Shown in pieces: positions 10,802 to 20,461 of a stretch of 37,269 nt of DNA. The notes under the pieces are model-generated. The model made no database searches and was not told where the DNA came from. It saw nothing but the letters and a program-made list of their open reading frames with translations. The DNA is taken from contig CAMAHO010000002.1 of assembly GCA_945834545.1 (NCBI GenBank), positions 1 to 37,269 on the forward strand. The letters are read 5' to 3'. Origin of the DNA: an uncultured Lachnospiraceae bacterium (GTDB lineage: Bacteria; Bacillota; Clostridia; Lachnospirales; Lachnospiraceae). The position numbers and the translations under genes were made by a program. Within the stretch, counting starts at the first letter, position 1. Each line of letters opens with the position of its first letter.

Positions 10802-12565
10802 TTATTCTACATCCTGCAGGGCTTCGAAGTCCTCTTCACCGGTACGGATCTTGACAACCTTTTCCACAGGGTAAACGAAAATCTTACCGTCTCCGATATG
10901 GCCTGTATAAAGGGCTTTCTTAGCTGCCTCGATAACGGACTCTACAGGAATCTTGCTGACTACTACGTCAACCTGTACCTTAGGAAGAAGGGTGGCATCC
11001 ATCTCAACACCACGATATCTTTCGCCGGCACCCTTTTGGATACCACAGCCCATAACCTGTGTTACGGTCATACCGGTTACACCCAAATCGTTCAGGGCTT
11101 TCTTTAATGCATCGTATCTGGAAAGCTTTGCAATGATTACGACCTTGCTGATGCCGGTAGGTGCTAAAGGTGCCACAACAGGAACGGCTGCATCCTTCTT
11201 TGCCTGGCTTGCGCTCTCATACTCTGCAACACCTAAGCTGGTGTTCTCGTTCACACTCATTGTCATAGTGTTGGAGATATCCATAATGCTGAAGCCTGCA
11301 TAAGCACTTGGCAAGCCGTGCTCGGTAGCATCCAGACCGATGATTTCTTCCTCTTCAGTAACGCGAAGACCGAATATTGCTTTGATTACAAGGAAGGTAA
11401 TGGTGATTGTCACTGCAGTCCAAGCTGCAACAGAGGCAAAACCGACAAACTGGATACCTAACAATTGAAAACCACCGCCGTAGAACAAACCTACCAGTTC
11501 TTCCCCTTCGCCGTTTGCAATGCTGTAGCCGGGAGCCGTGTTGGTAGCAAATAAGCCTACTGCAAGAGTACCCCAGATACCGTTTAAGCAGTGAACTGCA
11601 ACTGCACCAACGGGGTCATCAATATGTAATACATTGTCTAAGAACCAAACGCCGAAGCAAACCAGCAAACCGGCAACTGCACCGATGATGATAGAGCCAA
11701 GGCAATCTGTTACATCGCAGGGAGCAGTGATCGCTACCAGACCTGCAAGGGATGCGTTGAGACACATAGAAACATCCGGTTTGCCATACTTGATCCAGGT
11801 AAAGATCATACATACAACAGTAGCGATTGCAGGAGCAACGGTTGTGGTAAGGAAAACAGAGCCAAGCTGCTCTAAGCTGGTACAAGCTGCACCGTTAAAT
11901 CCATACCAGCCAAGCCATAGGATGAACACACCAAGGGCACCGATGGGAAGATTGTGACCGGGGAAAGCATTTACCTTTTCTACCTTTCCGTCCTTACCGG
12001 TTACAAACTTACCGATACGAGGTCCAAGAATCTTGGCACCAATCAAAGCAGAGATACCACCTACCATATGGATTGCACAGGAACCTGCGAAATCGTGGAA
12101 GCCCGTCTGAGAAAGCCAGCCGCCACCCCAAATCCAGTGTGCTTCGATAGGATAAATCAAAGCGGAAATAACGGCTGAGTAAACACAGTAGGAAAGGAAT
12201 TTGGTTCTCTCTGCCATAGCACCGGAAACGATAGTTGCTGTGGTAGCACAGAATACCAGGTTGAATACGAAATTCGAGAAATCAAAGCTTTCGTATGCTG
12301 TAAAGATATCAAAGCCGGGTTTTCCGATGAGACCTACCACATCCTCACCAAGCAACAGGCTAAAGCCGATCAATATAAAAACTACGGTACCGATACAAAA
12401 ATCCATCAGGTTCTTCATCAGGATGTTTCCTGTATTCTTAGCTCTGGTAAAGCCTGCCTCTACCATCGCAAAGCCTGCCTGCATCCAAAATACCAGGGCA
12501 GCGCCGATTAAGAACCACACGCCAAACACTTGGCCGCTAACAGCACTCATAATTTCTTCTGTCAT
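10802..12565 (-). CDS. amt: Ammonium transporter with C-terminally fused P-II (GlnB/GlnK) domain
   Basis: Amt core (WIWGGGWLSQTGFHDFAGSCAIHMVGG), then P-II domain VVIIAKLSRYDALKKALNDLGVTGMTVTQVMGCGIQKG...GDGKIFVYPVEKVVKIRTGEED. ATG 12565 behind GAGGAGG. Confidence 0.93.
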   Translation of the reverse strand: MTEEIMSAVSGQVFGVWFLIGAALVFWMQAGFAMVEAGFTRAKNTGNILMKNLMDFCIGTVVFILIGFSLLLGEDVVGLIGKPGFDIFTAYESFDFSNFVFNLVFCATTATIVSGAMAERTKFLSYCVYSAVISALIYPIEAHWIWGGGWLSQTGFHDFAGSCAIHMVGGISALIGAKILGPRIGKFVTGKDGKVEKVNAFPGHNLPIGALGVFILWLGWYGFNGAACTSLEQLGSVFLTTTVAPAIATVVCMIFTWIKYGKPDVSMCLNASLAGLVAITAPCDVTDCLGSIIIGAVAGLLVCFGVWFLDNVLHIDDPVGAVAVHCLNGIWGTLAVGLFATNTAPGYSIANGEGEELVGLFYGGGFQLLGIQFVGFASVAAWTAVTITITFLVIKAIFGLRVTEEEEIIGLDATEHGLPSAYAGFSIMDISNTMTMSVNENTSLGVAEYESASQAKKDAAVPVVAPLAPTGISKVVIIAKLSRYDALKKALNDLGVTGMTVTQVMGCGIQKGAGERYRGVEMDATLLPKVQVDVVVSKIPVESVIEAAKKALYTGHIGDGKIFVYPVEKVVKIRTGEEDFEALQDVE

Positions 12566-12590
12566 AATAGTTTCCTCCTCATATAAATGG

Positions 12591-12626
12591 AAAGGCACGT
12601 TCCCCTTGGGAACGCGCCTTTGCGTT
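12591..12626 (-). promoter_or_regulatory. amt leader hairpin with AAAGGC hexaloop alternative
   Basis: Minus strand AACGC-AAAGGC-GCGTT (5-bp stem, hexaloop) overlapping AAAGGCGCGTTCCC aagg GGAACGTGCCTTT. Confidence 0.6.
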
Positions 12627-12722
12627 TAAAATAATATATAAGATAATACCTGCGGATTTCTCCGTACTTTGTACTCTCGCAATCCTATCAAATATTCGCA
12701 TATAGTATGCTCATATTTGAGC

Positions 12723-12783
12723 GGGTCCCAAGGTCTGTTACCCACATTTGAGTAAGCTCATGTGGGTAAAGACCTTTTGACCC
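12723..12783 (-). terminator. Long hairpin downstream of glnA
   Basis: GGGTCccAAGGTCTgTTACCCACATtTGA gtaagc TCAtGTGGGTAAaGACCTTttGACCC begins 5 nt past the glnA stop; no clear U-tract, so it could be a processing/stability hairpin or a REP-type palindrome instead. Confidence 0.5.
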
Positions 12784-12788
12784 TGGTA

Positions 12789-14882
12789 TTATACATAGAA
12801 CAGTATCTTTGCATAATCCGGATAAGGAAGTACATCCTCAGGAAGCAGTTCCTCTGCCTCATCTGCAACCTTGCGAAGCTCTTCCATCTTAGCCAGAATG
12901 GTTGCCTGATAGTACTTAGCAGCTACCAGCGCCTCTGTCAGACCTTCTGCCGTTTCAATCTCTCCTGCCAGCTCACTTACCAGTTCAGAAATGCTGTCAT
13001 ACTGACCGGAAAGCTTTGTCAAAAGACGAACCTCAGCATTTACCGAAAGGCTGTCACACACTGCCTTCTTCTTGGAAACAGAAGTAGCGATCTGATCCAT
13101 ATACTCCATAAGAGCCGGTAAGAACTGCTTATTGACCATATCTACCATTGTCTTAGCTTCAATATGAATGGTCTTGGTATAGTTCTCTAAGAGAATCTCA
13201 TATCTGGAGTAAATCTCACTCTCCGTAAAGATATGATGCTTTGTAAAAAGCTTCTTATTCTTATCTGCCACAAACACAGGAAGTACATCCGGTGTGGACT
13301 TGTAGTTGTATAAGCCTCTCTTTTCTGCCTCTGCTACCCACTCATCGGTATAGCCGTTTCCGTTAAAGATAACCTTCTTGTGCTCTGCGATTCTGTCCTT
13401 CAATAGGCTGTGAATCTTGTCAGTCATCTGGTCAGCAGCTACATCCTTAAGCTCTTCATAAATCTTAGACAACTCTTCTGCCACTGCTGTATTTAACACC
13501 ACATTGGGTCCGGATACAGAAAGGGAAGAGCCCAGGGAACGAAACTCGAACTTATTACCGGTAAATGCAAAAGGTGAAGTTCTGTTACGATCCGTTGTAT
13601 CCTTAAAGAAATGAGGAAGTACACTGGCGCCGATATCCATAGTCACCTTTTCCTTATTTCCAAAGAAAGTGTCATTCTCAATGGACTTTAGTACCTCGGT
13701 AAGCTCATCTCCCAGGAATACGGAAATAATAGCAGGAGGTGCTTCGTTGGCTCCCAGTCTGTGGTCGTTTCCGGCAGATGCAACCGACAATCTCATCAAA
13801 TCTGCATAATTGTCAACTGCCGAGATAACTGCCATGAGGAATACCAGGAACTGTGTATTCTCTGCTGGAGTCTTGCCGGGGTCTAAGAGGTTTACCCCGG
13901 TATCCGTAGTCATGGACCAGTTGTTGTGCTTTCCGGAACCGTTGATTCCTGCGAAAGGCTTTTCGTGAAGGAGACATACAAAGCCGTGTTTGTCTGCTAC
14001 CTTTCTCATCACATCCATTGTCAACTGGTTGTGGTCCACTGCCACATTGGTGGTATCAAATACAGGTGCTAGCTCGTGCTGAGCAGGTGCTACCTCGTTG
14101 TGTTTTGTCTTAGCGGGAATTCCCAGCTTCCAAAGCTCCTCATCCAGGTCGTGCATATAAGCGGAAACTCTGGGCTTTAAGGCTCCGAAATAATGGTCCT
14201 CCATTTCCTGTCCCTTAGGAGGCTTCGCACCAAGCAAGGTTCTGCCGGTGAAAATCAAATCCATTCTCTTCTTGAAGTCTTCCTTATCTACCAGGAAGTA
14301 CTCCTGCTCAGGACCTACTGTGGTAGCAACACTCTTCACCCCTGTGTTGCCCAACAGTCCAAGCACCTTAACTGCCTCCTTGTTTAGTGCCTCCATAGAA
14401 CGAAGGAGAGGAGTTTTCTTATCCAGTGCTTCACCACTGTAGGAACAGAAGGCTGTGGGTATGTAAAGCGTTCCATCCTTGATGAAGGCCGGTGAAGTAG
14501 GATCCCAGGCTGTATATCCTCTGGCTTCAAAAGTTGCTCGAAGTCCTCCTGAAGGGAAACTGGAAGCATCCGGTTCACCCTTAACCAATTCCTTTCCGGA
14601 GAATTCCATGATTACCTCGCCGTTTCCTACGGGATTGATAAAGCTGTCGTGCTTCTCAGCAGTGAAACCGGTCATAGGCTGGAACCAGTGAGTGAAATGA
14701 GTTGCCCCATGCTCTACTGCCCATTCCTTCATAGCGATTGCTACTGCATTGGCTACATCCAATTCCAAATGAGAATTGGTATCAATTGTCTTTCTAAGTG
14801 CTTTATAAATATCCTTAGGGAGCTTTTCACGCATTACTCTGTCGTTAAACACCAAGCTTCCATACATTTCAGGTACTGTCAT
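12789..14882 (-). CDS. glnA: Glutamine synthetase type III
   Basis: 697 aa from MTVPEMYGSL; GSIII motifs GPEQEYFLVD, KHNEVAPAQHELAPVFDTTNVAVDHNQL, GINGSGKHNNWS. The ORF-track N-extension overlaps the leader. Confidence 0.95.
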   Translation of the reverse strand: MTVPEMYGSLVFNDRVMREKLPKDIYKALRKTIDTNSHLELDVANAVAIAMKEWAVEHGATHFTHWFQPMTGFTAEKHDSFINPVGNGEVIMEFSGKELVKGEPDASSFPSGGLRATFEARGYTAWDPTSPAFIKDGTLYIPTAFCSYSGEALDKKTPLLRSMEALNKEAVKVLGLLGNTGVKSVATTVGPEQEYFLVDKEDFKKRMDLIFTGRTLLGAKPPKGQEMEDHYFGALKPRVSAYMHDLDEELWKLGIPAKTKHNEVAPAQHELAPVFDTTNVAVDHNQLTMDVMRKVADKHGFVCLLHEKPFAGINGSGKHNNWSMTTDTGVNLLDPGKTPAENTQFLVFLMAVISAVDNYADLMRLSVASAGNDHRLGANEAPPAIISVFLGDELTEVLKSIENDTFFGNKEKVTMDIGASVLPHFFKDTTDRNRTSPFAFTGNKFEFRSLGSSLSVSGPNVVLNTAVAEELSKIYEELKDVAADQMTDKIHSLLKDRIAEHKKVIFNGNGYTDEWVAEAEKRGLYNYKSTPDVLPVFVADKNKKLFTKHHIFTESEIYSRYEILLENYTKTIHIEAKTMVDMVNKQFLPALMEYMDQIATSVSKKKAVCDSLSVNAEVRLLTKLSGQYDSISELVSELAGEIETAEGLTEALVAAKYYQATILAKMEELRKVADEAEELLPEDVLPYPDYAKILFYV

Positions 14883-14906
14883 CTCTCTTTCTCCTTTCTC
14901 ACTTTT

Positions 14907-14948
14907 TATGAGCGCCCTTAAGTTGCGCATCCTTAAGAACCACTCATA
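14907..14948 (-). promoter_or_regulatory. Second stem-loop in the glnA leader
   Basis: Minus strand TATGAG tggtt CTTAAG gatgcgcaa CTTAAG ggcg CTCATA between the first hairpin and the start codon. Confidence 0.45.
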
Positions 14949-14956
14949 GAAATAAA

Positions 14957-14994
14957 GAAAAGGCGCCTTGGACTAATCCAAAGCGCCTTTGCTT
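14957..14994 (-). promoter_or_regulatory. glnA leader terminator-like hairpin overlapping an AAAGGC hexaloop stem
   Basis: Minus strand AAGC-AAAGGC-GCTT overlapping AAAGGCGCtTTGGA ttag TCCAAgGCGCCTTTTCTTT, directly after the promoter. Confidence 0.65.
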
Positions 14995-15002
14995 ATGGGT
15001 GT

Positions 15003-15031
15003 ACTTTAGCACTTTCGTTTTTTCTTGTCAA
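15003..15031 (-). promoter_or_regulatory. Sigma-A-type promoter for glnA
   Basis: Minus strand TTGACA - 17 bp - TAAAGT. Confidence 0.75.
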
Positions 15032-15736: not shown

Positions 15737-16116
15737 GGTCCTGGGGACGCTAAAAAGTGGCTTTTTTACTGTCCCCGGTGGTCCTTTTGTCAGCAGAGTT
15801 AGCGCAGGATAAAGGCAGCCCTCCATAGATGGCTTTCCATCAATTCACGGAGAATGCTTCGTTTTTCTTAATACTTTGCCCATAACCAGAGAGCCTTCGA
15901 CACGATGTCGAAGGCAGTCGCCCCTGAGCCAGGACGGCGAATGGGCGACGGTCTCGTACGATGCCAAAAATGAAATCAAAGTATTTAGAAAAACCAGCAT
16001 TCGCAGTGTGATGGAAAGCCACCTATGGAGGGTTGCCTTACCCCCGCGCTAACTCACAGACATAAAAAGGACCACCGGGGACAGTAAAAAAGCCACTTTT
16101 TAGCGTCCCCAGGACC
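15737..16116. repeat. Composite palindromic element A (~380 bp, conserved core 15847-16010)
   Basis: Left arm ggtcctggggacgctaaaaagtggcttttttactgtccccggtggtcctttt is the reverse complement of the right arm aaaaggaccaccggggacagtaaaaaagccactttttagcgtccccaggacc; pairing continues inward (ccctccatagatggctttccatc / gatggaaagccacctatggaggg). Confidence 0.9.
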
Positions 16117-16188: not shown

Positions 16189-19100
16189 CTAAAATATAGT
16201 AGAGACCTTGATGGTCTGCTCCTCCAAGACATCTAAAAGAACCTTAACCGTGTCTAAGGAGGTGAACATGGTGACATTGTTTTCAATGGCGCAACGACGG
16301 ATTGCCACACCGTCCTCGTAGTGAACACCTGAGAGAATAGCTCTGGTGTTGATCACATAGCTCACATAGCCGGCGCGAATGGAGTCTAAGATCTCCTCGC
16401 TGCCCTCGCTGAGCTTTCTGCGCACGCGGGTGCGGATACCATGCTCCTTTAAGAAATCCGCACTTCCTATGGTGGCTTCAATGTTAAAGCCCATATCGTA
16501 AAATCTCTGTATCAAAGGTAAGGCTTCCTCCTTATCTTCATCAGCAAGAGTGACCATTACCGTTCCGTAATTCTGTAGCTTGATTCCCGATGAAATCAAT
16601 GCCTTGTACATAGCACGATGTAATTTCTCATCATAGCCTATGGTTTCTCCGGTGGATTTCATTTCCGGAGACAGGTAGGCATCCATTCCCTTCAGCTTGG
16701 AGAAGGAGAAGGCCGGTGCCTTCACATACCACAGCTTGCGTTCCTCGGGATATAGGGAGAAAATGCCCTGCTCCTTCAGACTGATTCCCAGGATGACTCT
16801 GGTGGCGATATCTGCCAGAGAGTAGCCTGTGGCCTTGGACAAGAAAGGAACCGTACGAGAGGACCTTGGATTCACCTCAATGATGTACACATCCTCCTTT
16901 TCGTCCACAATGAACTGAATATTATAAAGGCCGACGATACCTATTCCCAGGCCCAGCTTTTTCGTATATTGCAGGATAGTTCCCTTTACCTTATCCGAGA
17001 TACTGAAACTGGGGTACACACTGATGGAATCTCCGGAGTGAACTCCGGTTCTTTCTACCAGCTCCATGATGCCGGGAACGAAGACGCTCTGTCCGTCACA
17101 GATGGCGTCCACCTCCACCTCTTTTCCACGGATATACTTATCTACCAATACCGGCTTATCCACATCCACTTCCACAGCGGTTTTCAGATAATGCCTCATA
17201 TCCGCTTCCTTGGAAACGATCTGCATTGCGCGGCCTCCAAGCACGTAGCTGGGGCGTACCAAAACGGGATATCCGATTTCCTCAGCTGCCTTCACCCCAT
17301 CCTCTATGTTGGTGACAGCCATTCCCTTTGGCTGCGGGATTGACAAGCTTTCCAGCAGCTTTTCAAAGGAGTCTCGGTTTTCCGCCTTCTCAATGGCCTC
17401 GCAGTCTGTACCTATGATGTGTACGCCATACTCCTCCAGAGGCTTTGCCAGGTTAATGGCGGTCTGACCACCCAGAATGGCAATGACCCCTTCCGGCTGC
17501 TCCATCTCGATAATATTCATCACATCTTCTACACAAAGAGGCTCGAAATACAGCTTATCCGAGGTGGTGTAATCCGTAGACACGGTCTCCGGATTGTTGT
17601 TTATGATAATAGCCTCATAGCCCTCAGCCTTGATGGTTTTCACGGCATGCACCGTTGAATAGTCAAATTCCACACCCTGACCGATACGAATGGGGCCGGA
17701 GCCCAGCACGATAATTTTTCGTTTCTCGGATAGGATGGATTCATTCTCCTCCTCATAGGTGGAATAAAAGTACGGTATATAGCTTTCAAACTCGGAGGCG
17801 CAGGTGTCTATCATCTTATAGACAGGCATCACCTTGTGCTTCTTGCGAAGCTCAAATATCTGCCTGCTGTCCATATTCCAAAGCAGTGCAATCTCCCTGT
17901 CGCAAAAGCCCAGCTTCTTTGCGCTCTTTAACACTTCCAAGTCGCCTGGATTCTGTGCCAGCCGTTCTTCCATTTCCACAATATGAAGCAGCTTATGGAT
18001 AAAGAACACATCCATTCCTGTAACGCGGGCAATCTCTTCTGCGTTAATCTTTCTTCTGAGAAGCTCTGCTATGGCGTAAATCCTGTCATCCGTTCCCACC
18101 TGGATGTACCGAAGGATAGCCTCCGTCTCCATATCGTCAAATTTACTGTGATGCAGGTGAAACAGACCGATTTCCAGGGAGCGAATTGCCTTAAGCAAGC
18201 TCTCCTCCAGGCAGCGCCCTACGCTCATTACCTCACCAGTGGCCTTCATCTGGGTTCCCAGAGAATTGTTGGCATCGGTGAATTTATCAAAAGGAAAACG
18301 TGGCATTTTGGCAGCCACATAATCCAATGCGGGCTCAAAGGAAGCCAAGGTATTTGCCAGAGGAATCTCGTCTAAGCGCATCCCCACACTGATCTTGGCA
18401 GAAACTCTGGCAATGGGATATCCGCTTGCCTTGGAAGCCAAGGCAGAGGATCTGGACACTCTGGGATTGACCTCAATCAAATAATAATGGAAGGATTTGG
18501 GATCCAGAGCAAACTGTACATTGCACCCTCCTTCTATCTTCAGCGCACGGATGATTTTCAGTGCACTGTCTCTAAGCATATGATATTCCTTGTTTGTCAA
18601 GGTCTGGGAGGGACAAACCACAATGGAGTCCCCGGTATGAATCCCCACAGGGTCCATATTTTCCATATTGCAGATGGTAATGGCAGTGTCGTTGGCATCC
18701 CGCATTACCTCGTACTCAATTTCCTTGTACCCCTTTACACTCTTTTCAATTAACACCTGATGCACCGGCGAAAGAGCCAGGGCATTCTTGATGATTTCTC
18801 CAAATTCTGTTTTGTTTTCAGCAAAGCCGCCACCGGTTCCGCCCAGGGTAAAGGCAGGTCTCACCACCACCGGGTAGCCAATTTCTGTTGCAGCCTCATA
18901 GGCCTCATCTATACTTTCTGCGATTAAGGACGGCAGCACCGGCTCTCCCAGGCTTAGGCACAGCTCCTTAAACAGCTCTCTGTCCTCAGCCCGCTCGATG
19001 CTTTCTGTCTTGGTGCCCAACAGTTCCACACCACATTCTCTGAGAATCCCCTTTTTCTCCAGCTGTATCGCCAGATTCAGTCCTGTCTGTCCTCCGATTC

Positions 19101-19365
19101 CCGGCAAAATGGCATCCGGTCTCTCCATTCGGATAATCTTGGCCAGAAACTCCAGGGTAAGAGGCTCCATATAAATCTTATCCGCAATGGTCTGGTCGGT
19201 CATAATGGTGGCAGGATTGGAGTTGCAAAGCACAACCTCATAGCCCTCCTCCCGCAAAGCCAGACAGGCCTGGGTCCCTGCGTAATCAAACTCCGCAGCC
19301 TGACCAATGATAATAGGACCTGAGCCGATGACTAAAATCTTATGGATGTCTGTTCGCTTAGGCAT
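16189..19365 (-). CDS. carB: Carbamoyl-phosphate synthase large subunit
   Basis: 1058 aa; [37 protein letters not shown], duplicated ATP-grasp halves. Confidence 0.97.
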
Positions 19366-20461
19366 GACATACTTCCTCCTTCCATTGCTTCATATTGTTC
19401 AGGAAGTAGTCAAATAAGTAATTGCTATCCTGTGGTCCCGGAGCACTCTCGGGATGATACTGCACACTAAACACCTTATCCCTTTCGCACCGTACCCCCT
19501 CTATGGTATTGTCCAACAGATTCAGGTGGGTAACCTCTAAGGGGGTTCCCTGAATGCTCTCAGGGTCCACTGCATAGGAGTGGTTCTGGGAAGTGATTTC
19601 TATTTGATCTGTCAAAAGGTTCTTTACCGGATGATTGCCCCCTCGATGTCCGAATTTCAATTTATAGGTCTTCGCTCCATAGGCTCTGGATATAATCTGA
19701 TGTCCCAGACAGATTCCAAAGATTGGGAATTTCCCAATTAGCTGTCTGATGCACTTGGTGGTGGCCTCCACATCCGCCGGGTCTCCCGGGCCGTTGGAGA
19801 TAAACACCCCGTCCGGCTTCATCTCTTCGATGACCTGAGACGTGGTATCCCAAGGGACTACTGTGACACGGCACCCTTTCTTTGCCAGTTCTCTCACAAT
19901 GTTGGCCTTCATGCCGCAGTCTATGGCTACTACATGGAAGGATGCCTTCTCGATTTTCCCGGAATGATACTGGGTTTTTGTGCTGACCAGACTCACCGCA
20001 TCCCTAGGAAGCTCCCAGGCGGTCAGCCTGTCCAAGGCTTCCTTGGTATCCGTGGAAGCATCTGTTATGATAGCCTTGCAGCTACCAAAGTTTCGAATAT
20101 GCCTTGCAAGCTTTCTGGTATCTACCCCACTAAGCCCCGCAATGTCATATTTTTCCATAATCTGACCCAACGTTGCCGTACAGCGGAAATTGGAGGGCTC
20201 ATCACAGTACTCTCTGACAATGAGGCCTGACATAGATGGCTTTAGGGTCTCATAATCATCCTTGGCCATGCCATAATTGCCGATTAGCGGGTATGTCATA
20301 ACAACGGCCTGGTAGGTGTAGGACGGGTCAGACAAAATTTCCTGATACCCAACCATGGAGGTGTTAAACACCAGCTCTACCATTTTTTCGCTAGGTGAAC
20401 CGAATCCTTTCCCTTGAAGGACTGTGCCGTCCTCCAAAATGATTTTTCTCTCTTTTTCCAT
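19358..20461 (-). CDS. carA: Carbamoyl-phosphate synthase small subunit
   Basis: [22 protein letters not shown]..., GATase I motif [12 protein letters not shown] 20461 behind a GAGGAG RBS. Confidence 0.96.

Follow-up and report, generated by a model that had tools for sequence, protein, structure and literature searches.

Leaders with a single start-proximal hexaloop at glutamine and nitrogen genes of a Lachnospiraceae bacterium suggest a variant of ANTAR antitermination

In a 37,269-nt stretch of the genome of an uncultured Lachnospiraceae bacterium (the window hereafter), the genes glnA, amt and purF are each preceded by a leader in which a small hexaloop hairpin shares a strand with a longer terminator-like hairpin. 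Comparison of sequences indicates, with a probability that we put at roughly 0.83, that these leaders are transcription attenuators of a NitR-type ANTAR nitrogen regulon in which a single hexaloop, placed at the start of the transcript, replaces two. An earlier note on this DNA had guessed at a single-hexaloop leader of ANTAR type, and its guess is supported by the set of genes involved, the presence of a sole ANTAR gene in the genome, the covariation of the stems and the absence of a second hairpin.

The three leaders have in common the 10-mer GCAAAGGCGC, which matches exactly on the minus strand at 12614-12623 (amt), 14983-14992 (glnA) and 21909-21918 (purF); three copies in the whole window compare with a mean of 0.09 in shuffled sequences, and none of 100 shuffles reaches three. 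The stems that enclose the AAAGGC loop differ from leader to leader, being AAGC/GCTT at glnA (14981..14994), AACGC/GCGTT at amt (12611..12626) and ATGGC/GCTAT with one G-U pair at purF (21906..21921), all on the minus strand. In every leader the loop and the 3′ half of the stem double as the 5′ arm of a terminator-like hairpin of 14-15 bp (minus strand, 14990-14959 at glnA, 12621-12591 at amt and 21916-21883 at purF), and the two structures are mutually exclusive. A U-rich tail follows the terminator hairpin at purF and at glnA, where it extends to about 14949. The amt hairpin has a weak U tract in this genome (CCATTTATAT), and a good one is present at the equivalent site in several relatives, among them L060, L061 and L080. 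The three positions of the 10-mer, the three stems, the dual use of the hexaloop bases and the U-rich tracts of glnA and purF were all claimed in the earlier note and are all confirmed.

The glnA leader is preceded by a promoter of the form TTGACA-17-TAAAGT (15003..15031, minus strand; -35 at 15031-15026, -10 at 15008-15003), an architecture shared by relatives, and the hexaloop stem begins only about 1-3 nt past the predicted transcription start. A similar promoter, TTGACA-17-TATACT, stands before the purF leader (21931..21959, minus strand); no convincing promoter of its own was found for the amt leader. The genes behind these leaders, all on the minus strand, encode a type III glutamine synthetase (glnA, 12789..14930; GSIII_N, 4.5e-81), whose true start is likely the ATG at 14882, an ammonium transporter with a fused P-II domain (amt, 10802..12598) and amidophosphoribosyltransferase, a glutamine amidotransferase (purF, 20484..21857). 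The purF operon apparently extends to carA-carB, encoding the glutamine-dependent carbamoyl phosphate synthase (16189..20482, minus strand). Known structured RNAs also occur in the vicinity. Two plus-strand matches to the TwoAYGGAY RNA (RF01731), each of about 120 bits, lie on either side of the purF-carA-carB operon (15845-16009 and 22094-22257), the latter inside repeat-rich DNA, and a Clostridiales-1 RNA (RF01699, 118 bits; 12644-12791, minus strand) lies after the glnA stop and ahead of the hexaloop leader of amt. We considered the Clostridiales-1 RNA as part of the amt switch and dropped the idea, as no match to it was found at 10 related glnA loci and its region of 157 nt is free of A1/G4 hexaloops on stems of 3 bp or longer.

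Might these leaders be ordinary terminators or palindromic DNA operators that carry a hexaloop by chance, with no regulated antitermination? The 10-mer is indeed found 11 times in the 2.18-Mb genome, mostly without a long stem or terminator, and was rejected as a signature on its own for this reason. Comparison of 80 related glnA loci argues otherwise. In a survey of every hexaloop on a stem of 4 bp or longer that shares bases with the 5′ arm of a terminator, the loop sequence not being preset, loops with A1 and G4 made up 124 of 245, against about 19 predicted from a multiplicative background based on the other cells; G1 with G4 came next with 23, and the remaining classes had 2-16 each. The loop consensus is AANGGC with a free third position (AAAGGC, AAGGGC, AACGGC), and variants with G1 are also seen (GAAGGC, GAGGGT). 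Under strict rules the hexaloop leader is present at 66 of the 77 glnA genes with sufficient upstream DNA, and several of the 11 that fail (L072, L083, L104, L126 and L138) display a shorter or G-U-containing stem by eye. The relatives thus retain the A1/G4 hairpin, the fit to ANTAR targets on which the earlier note had remarked, and do so with covarying stems. In the hexaloop stem 94.5% of the cells are paired, a percentage biased upward by the choice of alignments having both structures (a bias from which the loop-class test is free), and 35 double-sided changes are observed against 5.7 after shuffling; the terminator stem has 115 double changes against 25.7. The strand common to both stems therefore covaries with two partners. 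Many of these sites are orthologous glnA leaders and hence not independent, while the leaders of amt, purF, asnB, glmS and pyrG are not orthologous to them. The covariation in both alternative pairings, the excess of A1/G4 loops and the occurrence of just four structured sites in the genome, at a specific set of genes, make a chance hexaloop highly improbable, and a DNA operator would offer no reason for a hexaloop stem of changing sequence to persist. Two glnA leaders (L068:4874-4928 and L071:4911-4967) carry the loop AAGAGC, in which A replaces G at position 4; both genomes contain two ANTAR genes, and the altered loops possibly reflect a changed specificity.

The genome was surveyed with models and with sequence patterns. 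The covariance model R1, built on the leader with all four genomic sites in its seed, recovers these four with E<1e-3 and has its next best match at E=4; two extra rows are palindromic sites read from the other strand rather than additional places. The fourth site, though part of the seed, was first found by a scan for loop and stem. It is thus the combination of promoter, hexaloop and terminator that is specific, and its four sites lie at nitrogen or glutamine genes only, as would be expected of the enrichment that the earlier note proposed to look for; more sites may be missing from this list, since the assembly is 85% complete. The fourth site (C96:4409-4458) is the leader of a second glnA and reads TTGACA-17-TATTAT-AGGGA[AAGAAC/AAAGGC/GTTCTT]ACC-AAAG-GGGTAAGAGCGCCTTTG. 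The next gene downstream is the sole ANTAR gene of the genome, so that the search for such a gene, likewise suggested beforehand, led to an operon bearing its own copy of the leader.

A second hexaloop is absent from these leaders, internal sites included. Of 124 sites, 83 have a promoter of sigma-70 type whose end is separated from the stem by 4-16 nt, usually 8-9 nt, and the foot of the stem is mostly predicted to fall around +1 to +4. The 10 nt or less of transcript ahead of the stem would be too short for another hexaloop hairpin. All characterised ANTAR antiterminators possess two hexaloop hairpins, P1 and P2 (PMC3369931, PMC3369936), and one could suppose that these leaders are canonical as well, with P1 overlooked, for example because transcription starts at a more distant promoter and the message is longer than predicted. 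In the 45 nt ahead of the stem, however, P1-like hairpins are found at 7 of the 83 promoter sites and 5 of the 41 promoter-less sites, compared with 11.4% of random windows, and none of those at the 83 promoter sites lies inside the predicted transcript. Most promoter-less internal sites, such as those of amt behind glnA, have room for P1 and lack it too. This background frequency agrees with the earlier note, which had seen one hairpin and no second, and leaves an overlooked P1 with very little probability. Among twenty sites inspected at the level of the class, most again have one hexaloop, and their stems are often new but compensated (e.g., ACAGC/GCTGT and TAGC/GCTA) at glnA, amt or an apparent asparagine synthetase gene. 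One locus (L298, G097:C5:49295-49508) has three tandem model matches about 83 nt apart before an ABC transporter gene, two of which are confirmed as hexaloop/terminator units.

The leaders resemble the dual-hexaloop RNAs recognized by EutV, NasR and AmiR (Ramesh 2012, PMC3369931; Walshe 2022, PMC8934654) in the A1/G4 hexaloop on a sequence-free stem of at least 3 bp, in its overlap with the 5′ arm of a terminator, in their location upstream of nitrogen genes and in the presence of an ANTAR protein in the genome. They differ in having one hairpin at the transcript start, with no room for P1. We therefore regard them as a probable variant of the ANTAR antiterminator and do not file them within the dual-hexaloop class, the tandem hairpins of which are missing. 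For EutV, both hairpins are required in vivo (PMC3369931) and lengthening the linker by 20 nt abolishes antitermination in vitro (PMC8934654), suggesting that EutV may not be able to act through one hairpin. In the known ANTAR-RNA contact the protein stacks on G4 and does not touch A1, which is consistent with the G1 variants observed here. In the literature searched, with subscription journals and supplements lying outside it, we found no description of single-hexaloop leaders of this kind.

The candidate reader of these leaders is a protein of 182 aa. Its ANTAR domain (PF03861) scores 55.9 bits against a curated cut-off of 27.3, and the AlphaFold model (mean pLDDT 91.5) has a receiver fold plus helices, with Rv1626 and EutV as the best matches among solved structures and AmiR lower down. 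Unlike an EutV-type receiver, the protein and its relatives mostly have Gly or Ser at the position of the phospho-acceptor Asp. Equivalents of EutV Met172, Glu160 and Lys149 are retained and that of Tyr164 is His, Phe or Tyr; the contacts Arg142, Lys143 and Lys147 lack conserved equivalents. The ANTAR gene stands behind a type I glutamine synthetase gene (glnA1) in nearly all of the 40 relatives compared, and it adjoins the second glnA in this genome too. A leader is found right before glnA1-ANTAR in only about a third of the relatives. In several relatives glnA1 lies behind gltD-like genes with no leader of its own, and a universal autoregulatory leader was not confirmed. In this genome the ANTAR gene is followed by dapF (L001:595-1473), which in two relatives has its own hexaloop leader (L078:2704-2750 and L248:2399-2449), linking diaminopimelate epimerase to the regulon.

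A nitrogen attenuator of this shape could also work without the ANTAR protein, be it as a riboswitch for a small molecule, through a different RNA-binding protein or by an effect at the start site such as reiterative transcription. Reiterative transcription operates at Bacillus pyrG, which is also an example of a start-proximal antiterminator elsewhere. One relative (G026), moreover, has the leaders and no detected ANTAR match. Yet what is conserved in the leaders, namely the hexaloop, A1, G4 and a stem of unconstrained sequence, coincides exactly with the determinants established for EutV and NasR (PMC3369931, PMC3369936, PMC8934654). Leaders also track ANTAR genes across the class. Among 46 relatives from the glnA-locus set, 45 have an ANTAR gene and 43 have leaders by the model, the converse mismatch of an ANTAR gene with no leader model match being seen in G031, G033 and G042. 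In a class sample of 147 genomes the ANTAR gene is present in 35 of the 36 with a leader match at E<=1e-4 and in 47 of the 111 others (p=7e-10, phylogeny ignored). A ligand pocket would not fit into an element of this size, and no Rfam family reaches threshold at the leader; a reiterative start in the style of pyrG was rejected for want of homopolymeric start sites. A non-ANTAR reader is thus unlikely, if somewhat less so than the two alternatives discussed above.

Among the genes behind 156 leader sites, glutamine synthetases account for 87 and ammonium transporters for 32, counts that are inflated by the choice of many loci around glnA, and they are followed by purF/glmS (9), asnB (4) and pyrG (4), with gdhA, gltB, nadE, carA, gatD, dapF and amino-acid transporters among the others. 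Strong matches across Clostridia likewise lie upstream of glutamine synthetases, ammonium transporters and glutamine amidotransferases.

How could one hairpin at the very start of a transcript control these genes? Under the favoured reading, that of a single-hexaloop ANTAR attenuator, RNA polymerase would start at the foot of the hairpin, and the first ~20 nt would fold as the small hexaloop hairpin presenting A1 and G4. By default, the far more stable terminator would replace the hexaloop once its 3′ arm is made, and transcription would stop. The predicted fold energies are -2 to -4.5 kcal/mol for the hexaloop and about -24 to -29 kcal/mol for the full leader with terminator, implying that a bound protein would be needed to hold the hexaloop for read-through. 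We infer that, when nitrogen or glutamine is scarce, the ANTAR protein from the second glnA operon binds the hexaloop and keeps it folded, and the direction of control would then be read-through into the protein's own glnA-ANTAR operon as well as into glnA, amt and purF-carAB.

The likely counterpart of this protein, compared by protein type and gene setting, is NitR of Clostridium saccharobutylicum, the gene of which also adjoins glnA. The cluster there is reportedly glnA-nitR-gltAB. The genes at issue are glnA-nitR and gltAB in that species, whereas here amt and many glutamine amidotransferase genes are included as well. Antitermination of the GS/GOGAT genes by NitR under nitrogen limitation has been proposed (PMC6316151, as cited there from Stutz 2007). 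With no phospho-acceptor Asp in the receiver, the ANTAR protein probably takes its signal from a partner rather than from a kinase, and the adjacent glutamine synthetase is the most plausible candidate. Precedents are AmiR-AmiC and NasT-NasS, in which the ANTAR protein is gated by a separate ligand-sensing partner (PMC3369936, PMC3795266), and AmiR shares the non-phosphorylated pseudo-receiver. In contrast to those systems, the neighbour here, a putative partner, is a glutamine synthetase and not an amide or nitrate sensor.

The structural study of EutV reduced the definition of the minimal ANTAR site to one hexaloop, discussed why antitermination still needs two, and called for the study of natural single-hexaloop targets (PMC8934654). 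The leaders described here would constitute a large and conserved natural set of this kind on the central nitrogen genes of many Clostridia, making it testable whether one hairpin is sufficient and whether proximity to the start takes the place of P1. They also furnish a short searchable motif for the glutamine regulon, spanning glutamine synthetase, transport and amidotransferases, which models of dual hexaloops are expected to miss. More tentatively, and with doubts prevailing, we hypothesize that a glutamine regulon common to Clostridia is governed by a kinase-independent ANTAR protein, which would be gated directly by the glutamine synthetase of the neighbouring gene and would use one 5′-terminal hexaloop for antitermination. 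If so, one hairpin would be enough for natural ANTAR antitermination, and glutamine synthetase would be its sensor.
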